The notes under the pieces are model-generated. The model did not search any database. It was not told where the DNA came from and saw nothing but the letters and a program-made list of their open reading frames with translations. A DNA stretch of 64,000 nt from Chrysemys picta bellii (taxonomy: Eukaryota > Chordata > Testudines > Emydidae), in the NCBI RefSeq assembly GCF_011386835.1, contig NC_088791.1, forward strand, positions 55,447,498 through 55,511,497. Reading direction: 5' to 3'. How positions within the stretch are numbered: the first letter of the stretch is position 1; every line of letters begins with the position of its first letter. A program made the position numbers and the translations under genes. Shown piece after piece: positions 13,592 to 63,750 of this stretch.

Positions 13592-13599
13592 CTCATGAT

Positions 13600-14255
13600 T
13601 AAGGCTAAGATTTTGTCACGGATATTTTTAGTATAAATCACGGACAGGTCACGGGCTTCCGTGATTTTTTCTTTTTTGCCTGTGACCTGTCCGTGATTTA
13701 TACTAAAAATATCCAGGAAAAAATGGGGATCTGCAGGTCCCCATACCGCCTGTAGTAGGGCGGCTGCAAAGAGACGAGGAGCCACGTGCAGCAGCTGGGG
13801 GCTGCAGGGTACCCCTGTTGCCTGCAGCTCTGGGGGTCCCCCACTGCCCATGGGGGCCAGGAGCTGTGGGATGCCCCTGCCTCCTATGTCAGCCGATAGC
13901 TGCAGGGTACCCCTGCCACCCACAGCTCCAGGGGCCCACAGTGGCTGGGAGTTCAGGGGATCCCCTGCGACCACATTGGCTGAGAGCTGTGGGATGCCCC
14001 TGATGCCCACAGCTTTGGGGGCCCATGGCAGCCAGGAGCTTGGGGGTTCACCCTGTGGTATCTGGGAGCTGCAGGGTACTCCACCACCTGAGGTGGCTTG
14101 GAGCTCTGGGGGCCGCTAGAGGTGGTGAGGGTACCCCACAGCTCTCTGCCCCCATGAATGGCAGGGGACCCTACAGTTCCCAACCACCGCAGGCTGAAGT
14201 CATAGAGGTCACTGGACATGACTTCCGCAACCTCTGTGACTAAATTGTAGCCTTA
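13600..14255. mobile_element. hAT-like nonautonomous element (656 bp, 8-bp TSD)
   Basis: Terminal inverted repeats begin TAAGGCTAAGATTTTGTCAC on the left and are the complement of GTGACTAAATTGTAGCCTTA on the right. The unit is flanked by perfect 8-bp duplications CTCATGAT (13592-13599 and 14256-14263), the size typical of hAT transposition. Inside is a near-perfect hairpin (about 13620-13656 with 13677-13713), followed by a GC-rich core of degenerate repeats around 'AGCTGCAGGGTACCCC' (about 13790-14140). There is no transposase, so it must have been moved in trans. Open frames in the core are compositional. Confidence 0.85.
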
Positions 14256-14263
14256 CTCATGAT

Positions 14264-21947: not shown

Positions 21948-21955
21948 CCTTAGAG

Positions 21956-22274
21956 CAGTGGTTCTCAAAGCCGGTCCACCGCTTGTTCAGGAAAGCCCTG
22001 GTGGGCTGGGCCGGTGCATCCGCTGGTTTGGCTGATCGCGGCTTCCACTGGCCACGGTTCACCGCTCCAGGCCAACGGTGGCTGCGGGAAGCAGCGCGGG
22101 CCAAGGGATGTGCTGGCCGCCACCTCCCACAGCTCCCATTGGCCTGAAGCAGCGAACCGCGGCCAGTGGGAGCCATGATCGGCCAAACCTGCGGAAGCGC
22201 CAGGTAAACAAAACTGGCCCAGCCCTCCAGGGGCTTTCCCTGAACAAGCAGCGGACAGGCTTTGAGAACTACTG
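21956..22274. mobile_element. GC-rich palindromic hAT MITE (319 bp, 8-bp TSD)
   Basis: Ends CAGTGGTTCTCAAAGCCGG and CCGGCTTTGAGAACCACTG-like (here with changes) are inverted. The two halves are complementary over most of their length, although a short stretch present in the right half (AGGTAAACAAAACTGG) is missing from the left. Perfect 8-bp duplications CCTTAGAG flank it (21948-21955, 22275-22282). CpG content is well above the surroundings. There is no transposase, and the several overlapping open frames are artefacts of the palindrome. Confidence 0.9.
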
Positions 22275-22282
22275 CCTTAGAG

Positions 22283-30611: not shown

Positions 30612-33470
30612 ATTCTTAAATTCTAGGACTGGAAGGGACCTCGAGAGGTCATTGAGTCCAGTCCCCTGCCTTCATGGCAGGACCAAATACTGTCTAGACC
30701 ATCCCGGATAGACATTTATCTAACCTACTCTTAAATATCTCCAAAGACGGAGATTCCACAACCTCCCTAGGCAGTTTATTCCAGTGTTTAACCACCCTGA
30801 CAGTTAGGAACTTTTTCCTAATGTCCAACCTCCCTTGCTGCAGTTTAAACCCATTGCTTCTTGTTCTGTCCTTAGAGGCTAAGGCAAACAAGTTTTCTCC
30901 CTCCTCCTCCTGACACCCTTTTAGATACCTGAAAACTGCTATCATGTCCCCTCTCAGTCTTCTCTCTTCCAAACTAAACAAACCCAATTCTTTCAGCCTT
31001 CCTTCATAGGTCATGTTCGCAAGACCTTTAATCATTCTTGTTGTTCTTCTCTGGACCCTCTCCAATTTCTCCACATCTTTCTTGAAATGCAGTGCCCAGA
31101 ACTGGACACAATACTCCAGTTGAGGCCTAACCAGTGCAGAGTAGAGCGGAAGAATGACTTCTCGTGTCTTGCTCACAACACACCTGTTAATGCATCCCAG
31201 AATCACGTTTGCTTTTTTTGCAACAGCATCACACTGTTGACTCATATTTAGCTTGTGGTCCACTATAACTCCTAGATCCCTTTCTGCTGTACTCCTTCCT
31301 TGACAGTCTCTTCCCATTCTGTATGTGTGAAATGGATTGTTCCTTCTTAAGTGGAGCACTTTGCATTTGTCTTTGTTAAACTTCATCCTGTTTACCTCAG
31401 ACCATTTCTCCAATTTGTCCAGATCATTTTGAATTATGACCCTATCCTCCAAAGCAGTTGCAATCCCCCCCAGTTTGGTATCATCTGCAAACTTAATAAG
31501 GGTACTTTCTATGCCAATATCTAAGTTGTTGATGAAGATATTGAACAGAGCCGGTCCCAAAACAGACCCCTGCAGAACCCCACTTGTTATACCTTTCCAG
31601 CAGGATTGGGTACCATTAATAACTACTCTCTGAGTACGGTTATCCAGCCAGTTATGGTATGCACCCACCTTATAGTAGCCCCATCTAAGTTGTATTTGAC
31701 TAGTTTATTGATAAGAATATCATGCAAGACCATATCAAATGCCTTACTAAAGTCTAGGTATACCACATCCACCGCTTCTCCCTTATCCACAAGACTCATT
31801 ATCCTATCAAAGAAAGCTATCAGATTGGTTTGACATGATTTGTTCTTTACAAATCCATGCTGACTATTCTCTATCACCTTACCACCTTCCAAGTGTTTGC
31901 AGATGATTTCCTTAATTACTTGCTCCATTATCTTCCCTGGCACAGAAGTTAAACTAACTGGTCTGTAGTTTCCTGGGTTGTTTTTATTTCCCTTTTTATA
32001 GATGGGCACTATATTTGCCCTTTTCCAATCTTCTGGAATCTCGCCTATCTCCCATGATTTTCCAAAGACAGTAGCTAGAGGCTCAGATACCTCCTCTATT
32101 AGCTCCTTGAGTATTCTAGGATGCATTTCATCAGGCCCTGGTGACTTGCAGGCATCTAACTTTTCTAAGTGATTTTTAACTTGCTCTTTTTTTTTATTTT
32201 ATCTTCTAAACCTACCCCCTTCCCATTAGCATTCACTATGTTAGTCATCCCTTCAGACTTCTCGGTGAAGACTGAAACAAAGAAGTCATTAAGCATCTCT
32301 GCCATTTCCAAGTTTCCTGTTACTGTATCTCTCTCCTCACTGAGCAGTGGGCCTACCCTGTTCTTGGTCTTCCTCTTGCTTCTAATGTATTGATAAAAAG
32401 TCTTCTTGTTTCCCTTTATTCCCATAGCCAGTTTGAGCTCATTTTGTGCCTTTGCCTTTCTAATCTTGCCCCTGCATTCCTGTGTTGTTTGCCTATATTC
32501 ATCCTTTGTAATCTGTCCTAGTTTCCATTTTTATATGACTCCTTTTTATTTTAGATCATGCAAGATCTCATGGTTAAGCCAAGGAGGTCTTTTGCCACAT
32601 TTCCTATCTTTCCTACTCAGCGGAATAGCTTGCTTTTGGGCCCTTAATAGTGTCCCTTTGAAAAACTGCCAACTCTCCTCAGTTGTTTTTCCCCTCAGTC
32701 TTGATTCCCATGGGATCTTACCTATCAGCTCTCTGAGCTTACCAAAATCCACCTTCCTGAAATCCATTGTCTCTATTTTGCTGTACTCCCTTCTACCCTT
32801 CCTTAGAATTGTGAACTCTATGATTTCATGATCACTTTCACCTTAGTTGCCTTCTACTTTCAAATTCTCAACGAGTTCCTCCCTATTTGTTAAAATCAAC
32901 TATAGAACAGCTTCCCCCCAGTAGCTTTTTCAACCTTCTGAAATAAAAAGTTGTCTGCAATGCAGTCCAAGAACTTATTGGATGGTCTGTGCCCCGCTGT
33001 GTTATTCTTCCAACATATATCTGGATAGTTGAAGTCCCCCATCACCACCAAATCTTGGGCTTTGGATGATTTTGTTAGTTGTTTAAAAAAAGCCTCATCC
33101 ACCTCTTCCACCTGGTTAGGTGGCCTGTAGTAGACTCCTAGCATGACATCACCCTTGTTTTTTTATCCCTTTTAGCCTAACCCAGAGACTCTCAACACTT
33201 CCGTCTCCTATGTCCATCTCCACCTCAGCCCAAGTGTGTACATTTTTAATATATTAGGCAACACCTCCTCCCTTTCCCCCCGTCTATCCTTCCTGAGCAA
33301 GCTGTACCCATCCACACCAACATTCCAATCGTGTATTATCCCACCAAGTTTCGGTGATGCCAACAATGTAATAGTTGTATTTATTTATTAGCACTTCCAG
33401 TTCTTCCTGCTTATTACCCATACTTCTCGCATTTGTATATAGGCATCTATATGACTCTTCCCCAACATAT
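30612..33470 (-). pseudogene. CR1 LINE copy D, nearly full ORF2 with frameshifts
   Basis: This is the most complete CR1 here. In order on the minus strand: an AP-type endonuclease piece (32896-33144) with [10 protein letters not shown] and [13 protein letters not shown]; a linker (32546-32767); RT N-terminus (31623-32126) with [19 protein letters not shown] and [16 protein letters not shown]; and RT core to C-terminus (30694-31668) with GSVLGPALFNIFINNLD and the catalytic FADDTK. The 3' UTR ends GGACTGGACTCAATGACC...GGTCCCTTCCAGTCC. The RT is broken by an indel near 31,655 and by a stop/frameshift at a T-rich run near 32,190. Enzymes for target-primed retrotransposition are therefore recognisable but not translatable as one protein. 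Confidence 0.9.
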
Positions 33471-37115: not shown

Positions 37116-39410
37116 TCAATGCTTGTAATGGCTCAGCCATTCCCAGTCCTTATTCAAACCGGAGTTGATTGTGTCTAGTTTGCATATCAATTCTAGCTCA
37201 GCAGTTTCTCGTTGGAGTCTGTTTTTGAAGTTTTTCTGTTGTAATATAGCCACCCGCAGGTCTGTCACTGAATGACCAGACAGGTTAAAGTGTTCTCCCA
37301 CTGGTTTTTGAGTATTTTGATTCCTGATGTCAGATTTGTGTCCATTAATTCTTTTGCGTAGAGACTGTCCGGTTTGGCCAATGTACATGGCAGAGGGGCA
37401 TTGCTGGCACATGATGGCATATATCACATTGGTAGATGTGCAGGTGAACGAGCCCCTGATGGTATGGCTGATGTGATTAGGTCCTATGATAATGTCACTG
37501 GAATAGATATGTGGACAGAGTTGGCATCGGGGTTTGTTACAAGGATAGGTTCCTGGGTTAGTGGTTTTGTTCAGTGATGTGTGGTTGCTGGTGAGTATTT
37601 GCTTTAGGTTGGGGGGTTGTCTGTAAGCGAGGACAGGTCTGTCTCCCAAGATCTGTGAGAGTAAAGGATCATCTTTCAGGATAGGTTGTAGATCTCTGAT
37701 GATGCGCTGGAGAGGTTTTAGTTGGGGGCTGAAGGTGACAGCTAGTGGTGTTCTGTTATTTTCTTTGTTGGGCCTGTCTTGTAGGAGGTGACTTCTGGGT
37801 ACTCGTCTGGCTCTGTCAATCTGTTTTTTCACTTCAGCAGGTGGGTATTGTAGTTTTAAGAATGCTTGATAGAGATCTTGTAGGTGCTTGTCTCTATCCG
37901 AGGGATTGGAGCAAATGCGGTTATATCTTAGAGCTTGGCTGTAGACAATGGATCGTGTGGTGTGTCCTGGATGGAAGCTGGAGGCATGTAGGTAAGTGTA
38001 GCGGTCAGTAGGTTTCCGGTATAGGGTGGTATTGATGTGACCATTGCTTATTAGCACAGTAGTGTCCAGGAAATGGACCGCTTGTGTGGATTGATCTAGG
38101 CTGAGGTTGATGGTGGGATGGAAATTATTGAAATCATGGTGAAATTCCTCAAGGGCTTCTTTTCCATGGGTCCAGATGATGAAGATGTCATCAATGTAGC
38201 GCAAGTAGAGTAGGGGCGTTAGGGGACGAGAGCTAAGGAAACGTTGTTCTAAGTCAGCCATAAAAATGTTGGCATATTGTGGGGCCATGCGGGTACCCAT
38301 AGCAGTGCCGCTGACTTGAAGGTATATATTGTCCCCAAATGTGAAATAGTTGTGGGTGAGGACAAAATCACAAAGTTCAGCCACCAGGTTAGCTGTGACA
38401 TTATCAGGGATACTGTTCCTGATAGCTTGTAGTCCATCTTTGTGTGGAATATTGGTGTAGAGGGCTTCTACGTCCATAGTGGCCAGGATGGTGTTTTCTG
38501 GAAGATCACCGATGGATTGTAGTTTCCTCAGGAAGTCAGTGGTGTCTCGAAGATAGCTGGGAGTGCTGGTAGCGTAGGGTCTGAGGAGAGAGTCTACATA
38601 ACCGGACAAGCCTGATGTTAGGGTGCCAATGCCTGAGATGATGGGGCGTCCAGGATATCCAGGTTTATGGATCTTGGGTAGCAAATAGAATACCCCTGGT
38701 CGGGGTTCTAGGCATGTGTCTGTACAGATTTGTTCCTGTGCTTTGTCAGGGAGTTTTTTTAGCAGATGGTGTAGTTTCTTTAGGTAATCCTCAGTGGGAT
38801 CAGAGGATAATGGCCTATAGAATGTGGTGTTAGAGAGCTGTCTAGCAGCCTCCTGGTCATATTCCAATTTATTCATGATGACGACAGCACCTCCTTTGTC
38901 AGCCTTTTTGATTATGATGTCAGGGTTGTTTCTGAGGCTGTAGATGGCGTTGTGTTCTGCATGGCTGAGGTTATGTGGCAAGTGATGTTGCTTTTCCACA
39001 ATTTCAGCCTTTGCACGTCGACGGAAGCAATCTATGTAGAAATCCAGTCTGTTGTTTCGACCGTCCGGAGGAGTCCACGCAGAATCCTTTTTTTTGTAGT
39101 GCTGGTAGGGGGGATTCTGTGGGTTAGTATGCTGTTCAGAGGTATGTTGGAAATATTCTTTGAGTCGGAGACGTCGAAAGTAGGATTCTAGGTCACCGCA
39201 GAACTGTATCATATTCATGGGTCTGGAGGGACAAAAGGAGAGGCCCCGAGATAGGACAGACTCTTCTGCTGGGCTAAGAGTATAGCTGGAAAGATTAACA
39301 ATATTGCTGGGTGGGTTAAGGGAACTGCTGTTGTGGCTGCTTGTGGCATGTAGCAGTTTAGATAAATTCTTGTAGTGCAAATGAACCCTCGGAGAAAGTG
39401 ACATGTGCAA
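37116..39410 (-). CDS. PLE polyprotein: reverse transcriptase plus GIY-YIG endonuclease (764 aa)
   Basis: Enzyme of a Penelope-like retroelement. It nicks DNA with its endonuclease and copies element RNA into the target. The frame is uninterrupted. Residues 45-61 (LSPAEESVLSRGLSFCP) match the conserved N-terminal box. The RT follows: KADKGGAVV near 168, YLLPKIHKPGYPGRPIISG near 241, MDVEALYTNIP from 312, GTAMGTRMAPQYAN near 369, and the catalytic YIDD at 405-408. A cysteine cluster (C624, C629, C632, then C668/C671) precedes the GIY-YIG nuclease, where VIYAI starts at 662 and MYIGQTG at 675. Length and order fit vertebrate Neptune-type elements. The start codon is the first Met of the frame, only 8 bases from an LTR boundary, so the native promoter is probably lost. 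The protein looks intact, but expression is doubtful. Confidence 0.92.
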   Translation of the reverse strand: MHMSLSPRVHLHYKNLSKLLHATSSHNSSSLNPPSNIVNLSSYTLSPAEESVLSRGLSFCPSRPMNMIQFCGDLESYFRRLRLKEYFQHTSEQHTNPQNPPYQHYKKKDSAWTPPDGRNNRLDFYIDCFRRRAKAEIVEKQHHLPHNLSHAEHNAIYSLRNNPDIIIKKADKGGAVVIMNKLEYDQEAARQLSNTTFYRPLSSDPTEDYLKKLHHLLKKLPDKAQEQICTDTCLEPRPGVFYLLPKIHKPGYPGRPIISGIGTLTSGLSGYVDSLLRPYATSTPSYLRDTTDFLRKLQSIGDLPENTILATMDVEALYTNIPHKDGLQAIRNSIPDNVTANLVAELCDFVLTHNYFTFGDNIYLQVSGTAMGTRMAPQYANIFMADLEQRFLSSRPLTPLLYLRYIDDIFIIWTHGKEALEEFHHDFNNFHPTINLSLDQSTQAVHFLDTTVLISNGHINTTLYRKPTDRYTYLHASSFHPGHTTRSIVYSQALRYNRICSNPSDRDKHLQDLYQAFLKLQYPPAEVKKQIDRARRVPRSHLLQDRPNKENNRTPLAVTFSPQLKPLQRIIRDLQPILKDDPLLSQILGDRPVLAYRQPPNLKQILTSNHTSLNKTTNPGTYPCNKPRCQLCPHIYSSDIIIGPNHISHTIRGSFTCTSTNVIYAIMCQQCPSAMYIGQTGQSLRKRINGHKSDIRNQNTQKPVGEHFNLSGHSVTDLRVAILQQKNFKNRLQRETAELELICKLDTINSGLNKDWEWLSHYKH

Positions 39411-39417
39411 TGCACAC

Positions 39418-40623
39418 TGTGACGTTGTACCCCATAATGCTTTATAGAAATATGCTTATGAGTGTAAATATGACATAACTGGAATATGTTCTATGCTAGA
39501 TATGCCATGTAACATATCTTTACAAAGGTTATGTTCTTCTGCATGTATTCATCCTATTCATATGCATGTATCACATTTATATCTGAAGTTATGAGCATTG
39601 GCTCTATGCTCGTATTTAAAGCGTCTGCTGTAGAAAGCACCTACGGCAGATTTGATCAACATAGTGGGAAGGGGTTATTCAAGTAAATGGAAGTAGTTGG
39701 CTAACAATGGATCTTGATAGATGCCAATCCACATCTGAGCTTTCCTGGGAACGTTCGGGCTAACATGTGGGCAATGGCTCGGCCTATAGAGAACTGAGTC
39801 ATGCATGGACATATGACTTGCCCATGTGACTCCAAAACTCCATCTTGTAGCTGTGATTCTACACAGGAGGAGAGAGGGGTTTCCACCCACAAGAGAGAGG
39901 CTATATAAGCCCCTGGGAATCCCTCCATTTTGTCTTCAGCTGGCACAAAAGATAGCCTCTCCACCCCAAAGAGATGCCCAAAAGAAACTGGAACAAAGGA
40001 CAGTAACTACAGGGATGCGAGTGATTGCTGGACCCAGACTAGGAGGAAGTCTAATCTGTAAAAGAGGCTTATTGGAACGTCTCTCAGGGTGAGATTTACC
40101 TGCATTTAGTTTCCTACTGTATTAAGCTTAGACTTGCATGTTTTATTTTATTTTGCTTGGTAATTCACTTTCTTCTGTCTATTACTTGGAACTACTTAAA
40201 TCCTACTTTTTATATTTAATAAAGTCACTTTTTACTTATTAACCCAGAGCAAGTATTAATTCCTGGGGGAGCAGACAGCTGTGCATCTCTCTCTATCAGT
40301 GTTATAGAGGGTGAACAATTTATGAGTTTACCCTGTATAAGCTTTATATAGGTTAAAACGGATTTATTTGGGGTTTGGATCCCATTGGGAACTAGATATC
40401 TAGGTGTTGGAGACAGGAGCACTTCTTAAGCTGTTTTCAGTTAAGCCTGCAGCTTTTGGGGAATGTGGTTCAGAACTGGGTCTGTGTTTGTAGCAGGCTA
40501 GCATGTCTGGCTCAACCAGGCAGGGCACTGAAGTCCCAAGCTGCCAGGAAAACGGGCTCAGAGATAGTCCCAGCACATCAGGTGGCAGTTCCGAAGGGGG
40601 TTTCTGTGACTTAACCCGTCACA
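39418..40623 (+). mobile_element. Solo LTR (1206 bp, 5-bp TSD) next to the PLE start
   Basis: The ends are TGTGACG and CGTCACA (TG...CA, perfect 7-bp inverted tips). The flanks on both sides are CACAC (39413-39417, 40624-40628). A TATA box, TATATAAG, lies at 39902-39909 and a polyadenylation signal, AATAAA, at 40218-40223, in the order expected of a plus-orientation LTR. No internal coding region remains, so it is a solo LTR of an endogenous retroviral or Gypsy-type element. It sits 8 bases before the PLE start codon, in the opposite orientation. The right flank is AC-rich, so the TSD is slightly less certain than its perfect match suggests. Confidence 0.82.
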
Positions 40624-50840: not shown

Positions 50841-51945
50841 TTTGCAGGAATTCCACCAGGATTTCAACAATTTCCACCCCCCATCAACCTCAGCCTGGAT
50901 CAGTCCACACAAGAGATCCACTTCCTGGACTCTACAGTGCAAATAAGCGACGGTCACATAAACACCACTCTATACCCGGAAACGTACTAACCGCTATACT
51001 TACCTACATGCCTCCAGCTTCCATCCAGACCACATCACACAATCCATTGTCTACAGCCATGCCCTAAGATACAACTGCATTTGCTCCAATCCCTCAGACA
51101 GAGACAAACACCTATAAGATCTCTATCAAGCATTCTTAAAACTACAATACCCATCTGGGGAAGTGAAGAAACAGATTGACAGAGCCAGAAGGGTACCCAG
51201 AAGTCACCTACAGGACAGGCGCAACAAACAAAGAATGCCACTAGCCATCACCTACAGCCCCCAACTAAAACCTCTCCAGCACATCATCAAGGATCTACAA
51301 CCTATCCTGAAGGATGATTCCCAAGGTCTGTGAGATTGAGGGAACAGGCCAGTCCTCGCTTACAGACAGCCTCCCAACCTGAAGCAAATACTCACCAGCA
51401 ACTACACCCCACACAACAGAAACACTAACCCAGGAACTAATTCCTGTAACAAAACCCATTGCCAACTCTGCCCCGCATATCTATTCAAGGGACAGCATCA
51501 TAGGACCTAACCACATCAGCCACACCATCAGGGGCTCATTCACCTGCACATCTACCAATGTGATATATGCCATCATGTGCCACCAATGCCCCTCTGCCAT
51601 GTACATTGGCCAAACTGGACAGTCTCTATGCAAAAGAATAAATGGACACAAATCAGACATCAAGAATTGTAACATTCAAAAACCAGTAGGAGAGCACTTC
51701 AATCTTCCTGGACACTCAATAACAGACTTAAAAATGGCCATTCTTCAACAAAAAAACTTCAAAAACAGACTTCAACGAGAAGCTGCAGAACTGGAATTAA
51801 TTTGCAAACTTGACACCATCAAATTAAGCTTGAATAAAGACTGGGAGTGGCTGGGTCACTACAAAAAATAATTTTCCCTCATTTGATACTCTCACCATCT
51901 TGTCAACTATTGGGAATGGGCCACATCCACCACAAGGCATGTTTT
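50841..51945 (+). pseudogene. 5'-truncated PLE copy with broken frame
   Basis: The conceptual translation starts in the post-catalytic RT region (EFHQDFNNFHP) and runs through the thumb (RYTYLHASSFHP, SIVYSHALRYN), the cysteine cluster and the GIY-YIG nuclease. The last 103 residues are open (51560-51871), with MIYAIMCHQCPSAMYIGQTGQ and ending near WEWLGHYKK. Stops and frameshifts interrupt the upstream part. It is close to the intact copy at 37-39 kb, but on the opposite strand. After the stop, only a short 3' UTR remains before an antisense CR1 piece. Confidence 0.85.
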
Positions 51946-52170: not shown

Positions 52171-52860
52171 AGCCATCGTAACATAACCATATTGAAAGAG
52201 CTAAATTATTGAAATAATGTAATTCATAGACACCTTAATGGGAACTATTCTTTCAGTCCATTCTAGGAAATTCTAAAGTACCTATTAATTTTCTTCTGAA
52301 TTGGCTAAAGTACCCCCATGATGTGGGTGGCAGCCCAGACATATCAGAGACAGAAACATAATGACCCCTTTTCTTCGTTTTCCTATATAGTGCTGGTGCA
52401 AGAGATGCTGCATGAGCAAAAGGCAACAAGGTGACTTCACAGTATTTGTGGGAGAGAAGGGCTCAAAGCTGGAAAACCTCACACCTGGATTTTGAGCATT
52501 GCTGAGTCTGGGTTTACCCAGATCGGAGTTATGGATTTGTCATAGAAGATTTGTCACATTTGATAGAAGAACCATTTGCAAAATTCAGTTCCTGATCTGG
52601 GTTCAGAATTCAGACAGCCCCAATGTTCATGGGTGGTCAGATCCAGATATTTGATTCTGATCCATCTATAATTCTTGCCCACATTTGGGGGGTGGAGAGG
52701 GCATCACCTTTTTTTTTTAGAAGGGATGGACTGAACTTATCCTGTCCTTTTCTTTTCATATCATCTAGATGGAGTCTATCACATACACAAACTTTTCAAT
52801 ATTTCAGTCAGATTCATTATTTGAATAGGGCTACTCTCTTGATAACACAATCCCTGGAGA
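52171..52860. other. Unique DNA
   Basis: No gene or repeat recognised. Confidence 0.5.
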
Positions 52861-52865
52861 ACTAA

Positions 52866-53151
52866 GGGCAGGTCTTCACTACAGGGGAGGGTCGATTTAA
52901 GATACGCAAATTCAGCTACGCGAATAGCATAGCTGAATTCGACCTATCGGAGCCGACTTACCCTGCTGTGAGGATGGCGGCAAAATTGACCTCCGCGGCT
53001 CCCCATCGACGGCGCTTACTCCCACCTCCGCTGCTGGAGTAAGAGCGTCGATTCGGGGATCGATTGTCGCGTCCCGACGAGATGCGATAAATCGATCCCC
53101 GAGAGATCGATTTCTACCCGCTGATTCAGGCGGGTAGTGTAGACCTAGCCT
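52866..53151. mobile_element. CpG-rich MITE, well preserved
   Basis: The left end GGCAGGTCTTCACTAC and right end GTAGTGTAGACCTAGCC are inverted. The interior has many CG dinucleotides (GTCGATT, ATCGATCCCCGAG) in an AT-rich neighbourhood, and internal self-complementarity. The high CpG retention suggests recent arrival or protection from methylation decay. The exact TSD is not visible. Confidence 0.75.
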
Positions 53152-54903
53152 GAGATTTTAAAGCTTCAGTGCCCTGTGCATTTAATTAGTAACCTTCTAA
53201 ACAGCAAAAGAAAAGAAGCATTTATTCTTGTATATCTAAATTATTCTAAGACAATAATTAAATTGCTTTGCCAAAAAAATGATTCTGTTCTGAAAGCTAT
53301 TTTTGTCATAATATTGAGTTTTCACATATGCCTTCCATTAATAAATTATAAGTGCCCATGACACATATCTACTATTTGTTTAGTCTGTGTCAGCTTCGTT
53401 TGGTATTCTGAATACATTGATTTACTAGCCAGCACTTCTCTCTACAAGTATCAGAATTCAACATTTCAAGAAGAAAACGTTGTCTGTGTATTCTTCAGAC
53501 TGACCAGGTTGCTGTGCATCTGAGTTTCACATCCACAGAATTTGCCTCCAGCAATGGAATACATGGAGCCCTGTGGGAAATTGTTCTGCTGATCTTGGTG
53601 GCATGAGCCTTTCCTCCCACATGCCCATGCAGAGCAAGGAAAGTGCACTGAATGAAATGCCTATTCTTGTTCTCAAAGGGATACACCATCTCTATACTTT
53701 GTTCTGAAAGAACTATAGTAACATCCCATTGCAAGATCATATGCCAACAATTTCTGACTGGAGCCATTCTATTCAAAATATCCCATCTCCACAGAACCTG
53801 TTTGCTGCCCTGCTATCTAGGGTATGTCTTCTTTAATTTCTAAAGTTACACACCCCAGGATGTGTAACTTATGTGGGATTTCAACTCGATTTTGATAATC
53901 CTTTTGATGTCTCTGTTCCTGTCAGCGGAGGCCATTCTTTAACTTTGAATTATTCTTGTTAAACAGAAGTGTGTGATGAGTGAGTGAGCTGGGGCCATTT
54001 TTATTGATCTTTGTATCAGCAGGGATTTTTCAGGCCAGGGATGTCTTGAAGTTGCTAACTGTGGGTTGTTGTTTTTTTAATTTGAGCCTATGACTCACTC
54101 AATAAACCTATTATGTCACCTTGATGTTGGCTGTCTCTTACCACTGGTTGAAAAAGATAAAAAGAAGAAAAGACAAAAATGTATCTCCCTCGACCCTTTT
54201 GATATGGGTTTCTATTCTGTGCTTAGATGTCAAAGTGACAGGTGCTTTAGATCGATAGACAGGCAGGTGGTGAATACAGCTAGTTTCCAGCATTCTGAAA
54301 ATGTGTGTCCTTTCTATATGAAGAACCTGGCAGAAAGTCTCTTAATGAGCACACAGAGAAGAGTCTAAAAGCAACTAGTCTAATAACTATTCAATGGAAT
54401 AGTCTTAATCAAATGTGCCAGACTGAAACCATTCCTTACTGAAGTTACAGACAAAGGGCCTATTCAGAGTCTTAAAGTAACATGTGTATGGAACTCCAAT
54501 TCTGATCACATATTACCTACACAGGGACTTTCAGTTTTGGTCATCATCTTATCAGAAATACATTGACAAACTGAAGGAGGTAAACCAAAAATAATCAAGG
54601 TGTTTGAGAGGAATGGTTGATTATGCTACCTTTATTCTGTCAGTCTCACAACTCTTAGCTGGCCAGTGTCCCAATGTAGTATACATGATACTACTGCTAA
54701 CATTATCTCCAATTATTCAGTTGAATTTTTAAGTGAACTTGCTTTGACGGTGTTCACATCCCTTTAGAGTTCCCTTGTGCATAGACGCTAGGAAACAAGA
54801 TTATCAGCAGGAAAGTTTTTCAAAACATAGTAAATTTTAAACAATTAGCAGGAAAAAATTGGATTTTGCTGCAAATACAATTTCAAAACCCCATTCCAAG
54901 ATT
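53152..54903. other. AT-rich unique DNA
   Basis: No gene or repeat recognised. Confidence 0.5.
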
Positions 54904-54904
54904 C

Positions 54905-55212
54905 AGGGCTTGTCTATACAGGGACATCCAAGAAAATGAATTCAAATTAGCTAAAGGTGTGAATTTGAACTGGATCAGTTAAACCTCACTAAATCTCCAC
55001 AGATAGTATTATTCTGAATTAAAATGTCCTTCATTTGGTTTAGCTAAATTCACTTTGGAAGTGAATTCAACTAAACTCAATTAAGGCCACTTTAATTCCG
55101 ATTAAGGGTATTCACACAGGGTTTTAAGGAGGTTTAACTAATCTACTTCAAATTCACACTTTTAGTTAATTCAGATTAATTTTCCTGGATGTCCCCCATG
55201 TAGACAAGCCCT
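54905..55212. mobile_element. AT-rich MITE (308 bp)
   Basis: AGGGCTTGTCTATACAGGG with ACATCC on the left pairs with GGATGTCCCCCATG and TAGACAAGCCCT on the right, giving inverted ends of about 26 bp. The inner sequence is rich in AATTCA/TGAATT words. TSD not identified. Confidence 0.8.
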
Positions 55213-62708: not shown

Positions 62709-63052
62709 CTTGGGATCAGTGGCGTAGCCAGGTTCTAAGTGCAGGGGGAGCAAACATAAAAAAGGCACCCCCCTTGGCTCCTCCTCTGGCCACGCCCCCC
62801 TTGGCTCCTCCTCCGGCCGCTCCGTGCCCCCCCCCCCCGCTTGGCTGGCTCCTTCGGCCGCACCGCGTTCCCCCCCCCAGCTCCTCCGGCCACGCTGCGC
62901 TGCAGCCATGCTGCGCTGCGGCCATGCTCGGTCCGGGGGGAGGGGGCTGGGTGCAGCGTGGCCCGGGCTGGCCGAGGAAGTTTTTAGGGTGCGGTCAGAG
63001 GGGAGGGGAGAAGAGGTGAGAAAGTTTCACGCACCCCCAGGGCAGGACTCAC

Positions 63053-63082
63053 CAGCTGCCGAGCGACCTCGGAGGAAGCCAT
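63053..63082 (-). pseudogene. SEPTIN10: Captured first coding exon of a SEPTIN10-like septin
   Basis: On the minus strand an ATG in good context (G at -3, G at +4) opens the peptide MASSEVARQL, followed at once by a strong splice donor, GTGAGT (63047-63052). From memory, vertebrate SEPTIN10 isoforms start MASSEVARHL and SEPTIN6 starts MAATDIARQV, with exon 1 ending at about this point. Upstream (63083-63480) is GC-rich, with GGGGCGGGG- and CGTCACGTC-type words, like a CpG-island promoter. Downstream sequence looks intronic. It has no following septin exons here and sits inside a transposon with target-site duplications, so I treat it as a captured fragment, not a gene. With only ten residues, the exact paralogue is uncertain. 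Confidence 0.5.
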
Positions 63083-63480
63083 GACACCGCGATGGGTGGC
63101 TGCCGCGGGAGGGGGAGGGGAGAGGTGCGCGGGAAGCTCCAGGCAGTTGGAATGTAACGGGAAGCTAGAGGGTCCACGCGGGGGCGGGGCCAAGCAAACG
63201 GGCAGGGAGGGGCGTGGTGCAGGGGGGTGGGGTCACGGGGGTGGCCTGAAGGGTGGGGCCACGCTGTAACCGCTTCGCACCCCTGCCCTGCACGCAGCAA
63301 GCTGGAGTCTGGGACGTGACGTGAGCAGCCAGTCGGTCCCTCCCCCCCTCCTCTGCCTGTATAATGGGCTGCAAGCTGCTGCCAGGAGATGCTGCTGCTG
63401 CCACATTAGCAAGGGGCAGGGAGCGCTCGGCTGCCGAGCCCTGAGCCGCCGCAGGCGGCCGCGGTGATGTTGGGACCACG
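63083..63480 (-). promoter_or_regulatory. Captured CpG-rich promoter-like segment
   Basis: Dense CG dinucleotides, GC boxes such as GGGGGCGGGGCC (plus strand near 63180), a CRE-like TGACGTGA word near 63318 and no TATA box fit a housekeeping-type promoter for the adjacent exon. Activity is untested; it could start transcription out of the element. Confidence 0.35.
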
Positions 63481-63750
63481 CTGAACGTGGGGTGCAATGG
63501 CCGAGGAGCCAGCCCCCTCACTCCTCCAGCCGCGCCCACTGCCCCCCCCAATGGCTCCTCCGGCCGTGCCGCCCCCCACCTTGCCTGCAGGAGCCCAGCG
63601 GCGGCCCAGCAGGCCAAGCTTCAGAGCAGAGCGTGGGCCCCACCCGCTGGCGCCATGGTAACTCCTAACTAAGGTGCCACTTTTGGAAAATGTGCTGAGT
63701 GGAAGCGGCTGCTTCCACTGCACCCCCCTAGCTACGCTACTGCTTGGGAT

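Follow-up and report, generated by a model that had tools for sequence, protein, structure and literature searches.

The window analyzed here is a stretch of 64,000 nucleotides (C1:55447498-55511497), and genome searches were run in its own assembly of 2.37 Gb. At 62717-63742 lies a non-autonomous hAT transposon of exactly 1,026 bp, which holds between its two arms a segment of host DNA with the first codons of two genes, SEPTIN10 on the minus strand and an ankyrin-repeat gene on the plus strand. Its features are the following:

62709..62716, no strand: left target-site duplication, CTTGGGAT
62717..62732, plus strand: left terminal inverted repeat, CAGTGGCGTAGCCAGG
62717..62925, no strand: hAT left arm with a GC-rich array (units like CCCCCCTTGGCTCCTCC); element 1-198 is common to capture-free copies, and the last 11 bases (62915-62925) are of uncertain origin, hAT or donor
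62926..63513, no strand: captured host segment, homologous to C1:243713899-243714493
62926..63052, minus strand: start of SEPTIN10 intron 1, with the donor GTGAGT at 63052-63047
63053..63082, minus strand: coding part of SEPTIN10 exon 1, MASSEVARQL
63083..63496, no strand: captured DNA between the two start codons, a putative divergent CpG-rich promoter
63497..63513, plus strand: ankyrin-repeat gene, start codon and first codons (MAEEPA)
63514..63742, no strand: hAT right arm, with one array unit
63727..63742, minus strand: right terminal inverted repeat, CAGTAGCGTAGCTAGG
63743..63750, no strand: right target-site duplication, CTTGGGAT

The original prediction had described a 1,026-bp unit with matching ends inside perfect 8-bp duplications and, on its minus strand, an ATG, the peptide MASSEVARQL, and a GTGAGT donor, all of which we find as described. 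The octamer CTTGGGAT occurs only twice in the 64 kb, once on each side of the unit, and the terminal inverted repeats agree at 14 of 16 positions, in keeping with the short terminal inverted repeats (∼15 bp) of the hAT superfamily (PMC11008031). In 60 dinucleotide shuffles, no pair of identical 8-mers 80-6,000 bp apart enclosed inverted 16-mers agreeing at 14/16 or better, the top value being 13, and two cases in the real window pass this test: the present element and a unit at 21948-22282. The first 27 bases of the left end are found exactly at 22 places in the assembly and at none with a backward-read control; the asymmetry between left and right ends is also seen in other copies. The ATG is at 63082, GTGAGT is the sole GTRAGT on both strands of the element, and the expectation for MASSEVARQL by chance in the window is ∼1.5e-8. 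The predicted CpG-rich stretch is reflected in a CpG observed/expected ratio of 0.56 in the element vs 0.20 in the window. CpG richness alone is weak evidence, because the hAT-like unit at 21948-22282, in which capture is not demonstrated, has a ratio of 0.59.

An Rfam search of the window found nothing, and two frames of the element gave no match in protein searches. The 16-base hAT end was found at eight loci in viral contigs; the noteworthy match consists of those 16 bases alone and was set aside as chance, and longer hAT-end patterns were found in no viral or prokaryote contig. In a text search of the literature for the terminal repeat, a similar start appeared in a silkworm MITE table. 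The window holds other mobile sequences. The unit at 21948-22282 is a GC-rich (64%) hAT-like element of 319 bp with target-site duplication CCTTAGAG and ends CAGTGGTTCTCAAAGC / CAGTAGTTCTCAAAGC agreeing at 15/16. A 656-bp unit at 13592-14263 has an 8-bp duplication, CTCATGAT, inverted ends agreeing at 13/16, and a GC-rich, repetitive interior. A candidate terminal-inverted-repeat unit at 52286-55184 (duplication TAATTTTC, 13/16) may be due to chance, since 13/16 is the top value of the 60 shuffles. A 779-codon unbroken frame at 37116-39455 on the minus strand has reverse transcriptase and GIY-YIG domains and is presumably a Penelope-like element; a related GIY-YIG fragment, slightly under the Pfam cut-off, lies at 51383-51871 on the plus strand. 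Two overlapping reverse-transcriptase frames at 30694-32198 on the minus strand belong to a broken LINE, which we take to be CR1-like.

The decapeptide identifies the minus-strand gene. We inspected the best 120 of 1,392 matches of a protein search with a SEPTIN10-like bait; the exact start MASSEVARQL is found in six of these, each of them a SEPTIN10 entry from a turtle (Mauremys, Pelodiscus, Natator, and Emydura, the last with three entries). Another eight of the best 120 agree at 9 of 10 residues: five are from fish, two from the turtle Carettochelys, and one from a viper. Of the 8 turtle SEPTIN10 entries among the matches listed, 6 thus have all 10 residues as in the window. The ranking is biased because the bait began with the window's own decapeptide; the exact identity is unaffected. 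The prediction that septins of this group begin in this way and split at this point also held: in the assembly, the exon 2 match begins with QNDN, which is residue 11, and the exon border is thereby shown directly. In two of five isoform pairs compared, from Amia (P0012/P0044) and Chanos (P0041/P0093), the members differ only at residue 11, and the differences of the other three lie in the C-terminal parts. The text string MASSEVAR was not found in the literature.

The native SEPTIN10 gene lies on the minus strand of C1 near 243.71 Mb, on the same contig as the window and 188 Mb from it. Its exon 1 is at C1:243714051-243714022, followed by an intron of ∼8.35 kb to exon 2, and the SEPTIN10 matches run from C1:243705674 down to 243667346 on the minus strand. 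The donor segment there is 595 bp (C1:243713899-243714493) and aligns with 85% identity counting gaps (513/607). The donor (L013/L043) matches element 210-797, window 62926-63513, only. Of the places scored (40 of 1,333 plus 40 of 167 candidates), it alone matches the captured part in full length and lacks hAT ends; the hAT-end patterns tried in L043/L044 are absent. A 573-codon open frame with ankyrin repeats (Pfam) starts on the other strand at a distance of 426 bp from the ATG of SEPTIN10; its first part reads MAEEPALSPESVLRFL. NCBIfam gives matches below cut-off only for this neighbor, over the ankyrin part, and the 60 listed of 337 PDB matches are also in the ankyrin part. We take this ankyrin-repeat neighbor of SEPTIN10 to be SOWAHC, the two being a neighboring gene pair. 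SEPT10 and SOWAHC are among nine genes named for chicken sweep regions (PMC9377314) and are both hub genes of a human co-expression module (PMC7825181), neither of which is proof of identity.

The position of this frame means that the captured segment spans the head-to-head gap with both start codons. The distance from one start codon to the other is 426 bp in the donor and 415 bp in the window, where the second, at 63497, opens a frame that reads MAEEPA and then runs into hAT sequence. The predicted capture of a septin promoter and first exon therefore stands for the SEPTIN10 side, for which the expected match at a septin locus is present at 85%; it was not of the septin alone, as both gene starts were taken. 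The captured DNA is colinear with genomic DNA at the native locus across the splice donor, ∼127 bp of intron 1, the region upstream, and the beginning of the neighbor on the other strand, which bears out the proposed DNA-level capture. We also note a fragment at C1:244686910-244686945 (L081), ∼1 Mb from native SEPTIN10, in which exon and donor are exactly intact.

The element is multicopy, a possibility raised in the original prediction. The counts that follow are lower bounds, from an element search in which 40 of 1,333 first-look candidates were scored (93 matches) and a captured-segment search in which 40 of 167 were scored (52 matches). At least five copies have the complete architecture with the same ends: the window, L010, L011, L012, and L025, the last with a nested insertion of 756 bp. 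Each lies within a different 8-bp target duplication, the length expected of a hAT: CTTGGGAT in the window, CTTACCAG in L010, CTCACAGC in L011, and TTGGTGTG in L025, all exact, and ATGTCATG/ATGTTATG in L012, which differs at 1 of 8 positions. Both ends were located in 24 of 28 copies checked, with exact duplications in 12, one mismatch in nine, two mismatches in two, and six in one; several derivatives, too, lie within exact duplications that are their own. The SEPTIN10 side is present in at least 27 aligned copies, window included, two of which are clearly incomplete over the exon. The ATG is retained in 26/27 and GTGAGT in 23/27, the remaining four being one copy with a substitution and three with gaps or missing columns; an ATG stands at the place of the neighbor-gene start codon in 23/27 loci, judged by eye on the sequences. 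With up to three mismatches allowed, a search for the 36-mer of exon plus donor gives 14 places (backward-read control, 0), and at five of them the match is exact; the native gene and the window are among the 14 and among the five.

Relatives that lack the capture allow its borders to be placed. L091 is 415 bp long, has an exact duplication, and joins element 2-198 to 797-1026; L092 is 374 bp long, has a duplication 2/8 off, and joins element 1-175 to 797-1026. The GC-rich array crosses the junction in both, and this junction lies near element positions 210 and 797, where homology to the donor ends, which indicates that the capture entered the array. At the left border, the common bases begin with GCTC, and GGCTC is also repeated in the array, a possible microhomology that is too short to weigh. 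L090 and L093, fetched as capture-free, have longer arrays, and L093 has no left-end match.

Rearranged derivatives fall into further types. Type II (nine measured, e.g., L029, L030, and L032) has both sides of the capture around a foreign middle of 207-344 bp. Type III (L026, L033, L034, L039, and L040) has the SEPTIN10 side with slightly more donor sequence and then other DNA. Type IV (L077, L079, L080, L082-L085, L087, and L088, and also L086, which lacks a left-end match) has the ankyrin-gene side only, joined to other GC-rich sequence. The extra modules searched, one per type (from L079 for type IV), are each multicopy. The 307-bp type II middle is 83% identical over its full length to a CpG-rich stretch at 417-748 of L116 (C1:197227300-197228500), in which the hAT-end patterns tried are absent and which, read by eye, has an ATG and then GTGAGT just upstream of it; L116 could be a second donor gene start. 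Against this, bases ∼31-179 of the module recur widely, and at least two of the occurrences (on C9 and C23) are within ∼350 bp of an exact copy of this element's left end, so the module travels also without the septin part.

The captured part of the window differs from the donor by a K2P distance of 0.128, or 0.057 without CpG sites, and the full copies differ from one another by 0.118-0.188. Relative to the native gene, exon plus donor is 94.9% identical vs 85.8% for the flanks, as expected with the native exon itself under constraint. Measured from the copies' own majority, divergence is 5.1% in exon 1 plus donor vs 10.5% in the flanks, and 3.7% vs 6.7% outside CpG sites; of the 180 other windows of 36 columns, 64 show less divergence than the one over the exon. 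The copies show no codon-position bias in exon 1 (19, 13, and 15 mismatches of ∼265 at positions 1, 2, and 3), the donor hexamer is changed in 1 of 152 cells, and the peptide is altered in two of the five full copies. We draw no conclusion on selection on exon 1 in the copies, because related rows are not independent. In a tree of 28 rows, 2 of 25 inner branches are well supported; the branching order of the copies is thus poorly resolved, and it is the shared breakpoints that speak for a single capture.

Taken together, these data are best explained by an array-bearing hAT that captured the DNA of a head-to-head gap and was mobilized in trans into several full copies and derivatives, a reading to which we give a probability of roughly 93%. 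The non-autonomous hAT, small and with a GC-rich array inside it, would have copied the 595 bp between SEPTIN10 and the ankyrin-repeat gene, probably once. The colinearity of intron and promoter with the donor shows that the capture was at the DNA level; most likely it proceeded by template switching where the array stalled replication or repair. The high GC content of the capture and the presence of a GC-rich array close to both junctions fit the fork-stalling/template-switching model (PMC8277862). Presumably a hAT transposase then mobilized the chimeric element in trans, which left several full copies in different parts of the genome, the one in the window among them, along with many derivatives; the differing 8-bp duplications show that it spread by transposition. 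hAT dimerization domains are abundant in the assembly, and all 150 candidates scored, of 17,389 first-look candidates, pass the cut-off.

In a broader reading, which we offer tentatively and consider less likely than not, this hAT lineage would repeatedly collect CpG-island gene starts, shuffle them, exchange modules among its copies, and seed the genome with putative promoters and splice donors, some of which would drive chimeric transcripts. The two-way promoter of SEPTIN10 and the ankyrin gene would have been taken first, and a CpG-rich segment like that of L116 (C1:197.2277 Mb, 83%) would have replaced part of it in one derivative lineage. It is unlikely that the copies now act as portable two-way promoters and putative exon donors that make chimeric transcripts: they largely retain the start codon and the nearly unchanged splice donor, and the window copy retains a GC box and a CpG observed/expected ratio of 0.70-0.75 near the exon, but selection on exon 1 is not clear in the copies and CpG-rich repeats are usually silenced.

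We consider it very improbable that gap filling at one old hAT copy was followed by segmental duplication rather than transposition. Gap filling is the explanation given for most animal Pack-TIRs, which are single copy (PMC8277862), and part of the family does look duplicated: the middles of the type II copies L029, L031, L035, L036, and L041 are 95-98% identical, the last four have a common target-site pair, TGCAGACC/TGCAGATC, and the left flank of L029 agrees with theirs; these five were therefore probably amplified inside a larger duplicated unit. The five full copies within five different duplications, and the derivatives with exact duplications of their own, speak against duplication as the general route. 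There is practically no chance that the window is itself the native SEPTIN10 exon 1 inside incidental inverted ends, a possibility that the original prediction had raised: its peptide does agree fully with six of the eight turtle SEPTIN10 entries listed, but only element 210-797 is homologous to the native locus, the true exon 1 and its exon 2 are at the distant locus, the same ends and capture recur elsewhere within other duplications, and no other septin exon was found in the window, either by a genome-wide search with turtle SEPTIN10 (68/68 candidates scored, 65 matches) or by a direct septin search of the window with bait P0034, whose best E-value among the matches listed, 0.36, falls in a non-septin stretch. 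A SEPTIN10 mRNA retrocopy that fell into a hAT would account for the first exon and is refuted by the colinear intron and flanks.

Captures of this kind, which the original prediction took to be rarely described in vertebrates, are less rare in animals than this suggests: a survey of 100 animal genomes reports 370 Pack-TIRs, 208 of them hAT (PMC8277862). Animal Pack-hATs are thus already in print, among them one from a frog that is multicopy and carries a captured 5' UTR. The survey's criteria are an insert of 100-5,000 bp, a unique parental locus at 80-120% of the length, at least 90% identity to the parent, no transposable element within 100 bp of the parent, and an origin other than retrocopying (PMC8277862). 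In the turtle element, the insert between the arms common to capture-free copies is 588 bp, which is 99% of the 595-bp parental segment; L013/L043 is unique among the places scored, and the colinear intron and flanks exclude a retrocopy. Identity without gaps is 513/576, or 89% (BLAST). The 90% cut-off is a recency filter rather than a structural one, and the turtle capture is slightly older than it admits. The titles and abstract beginnings of the open-licence papers listed mention no DNA transposon that captured a bidirectional promoter in full, and no link between SEPTIN10 and a transposon. Donor, captured segment, capture-free relatives, and dispersed copies are all in one genome, which makes the capture model directly testable. 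Since the cargo includes a start codon and a splice donor as well as the whole stretch between the two divergent starts, every copy amounts to a natural experiment in promoter insertion and exon trapping, and RNA data from the species would reveal whether transposons can spread working two-way promoters in animals.

Like other animal Pack-TIRs, the turtle element has host DNA between two ends of a terminal-inverted-repeat element and an identifiable donor (PMC8277862). Most of the surveyed Pack-TIRs are present only once; the median insert is 224 bp, and the only four multicopy cases were three from frogs and one from alligator; template switching was proposed for them, and GC-rich DNA tends to be captured (PMC8277862). 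The turtle element differs from most in being multicopy. Plant Pack-TYPE elements, likewise non-autonomous DNA transposons, shuffle coding DNA in plant hosts (PMC8903248). Ssk-FB4 of Drosophila also captured 5' upstream DNA and then transposed repeatedly, but it took nearly a whole gene and is of a different element type; proteomic and selection evidence is given for it (PMC8277862). Pack-hAT-N8_XT of the western clawed frog captured 291 bp of CAPSL 5' UTR and is found on three chromosomes with distinct target duplications (PMC8277862). The turtle element resembles it as a non-autonomous hAT that captured DNA of a gene start and then moved. Unlike it, the turtle capture is of 595 bp, takes both starts of a head-to-head pair with a splice donor, and is present in full in at least five copies, next to many rearranged derivatives, so that the family is a clear animal example of a transposon capturing the stretch between two gene starts.
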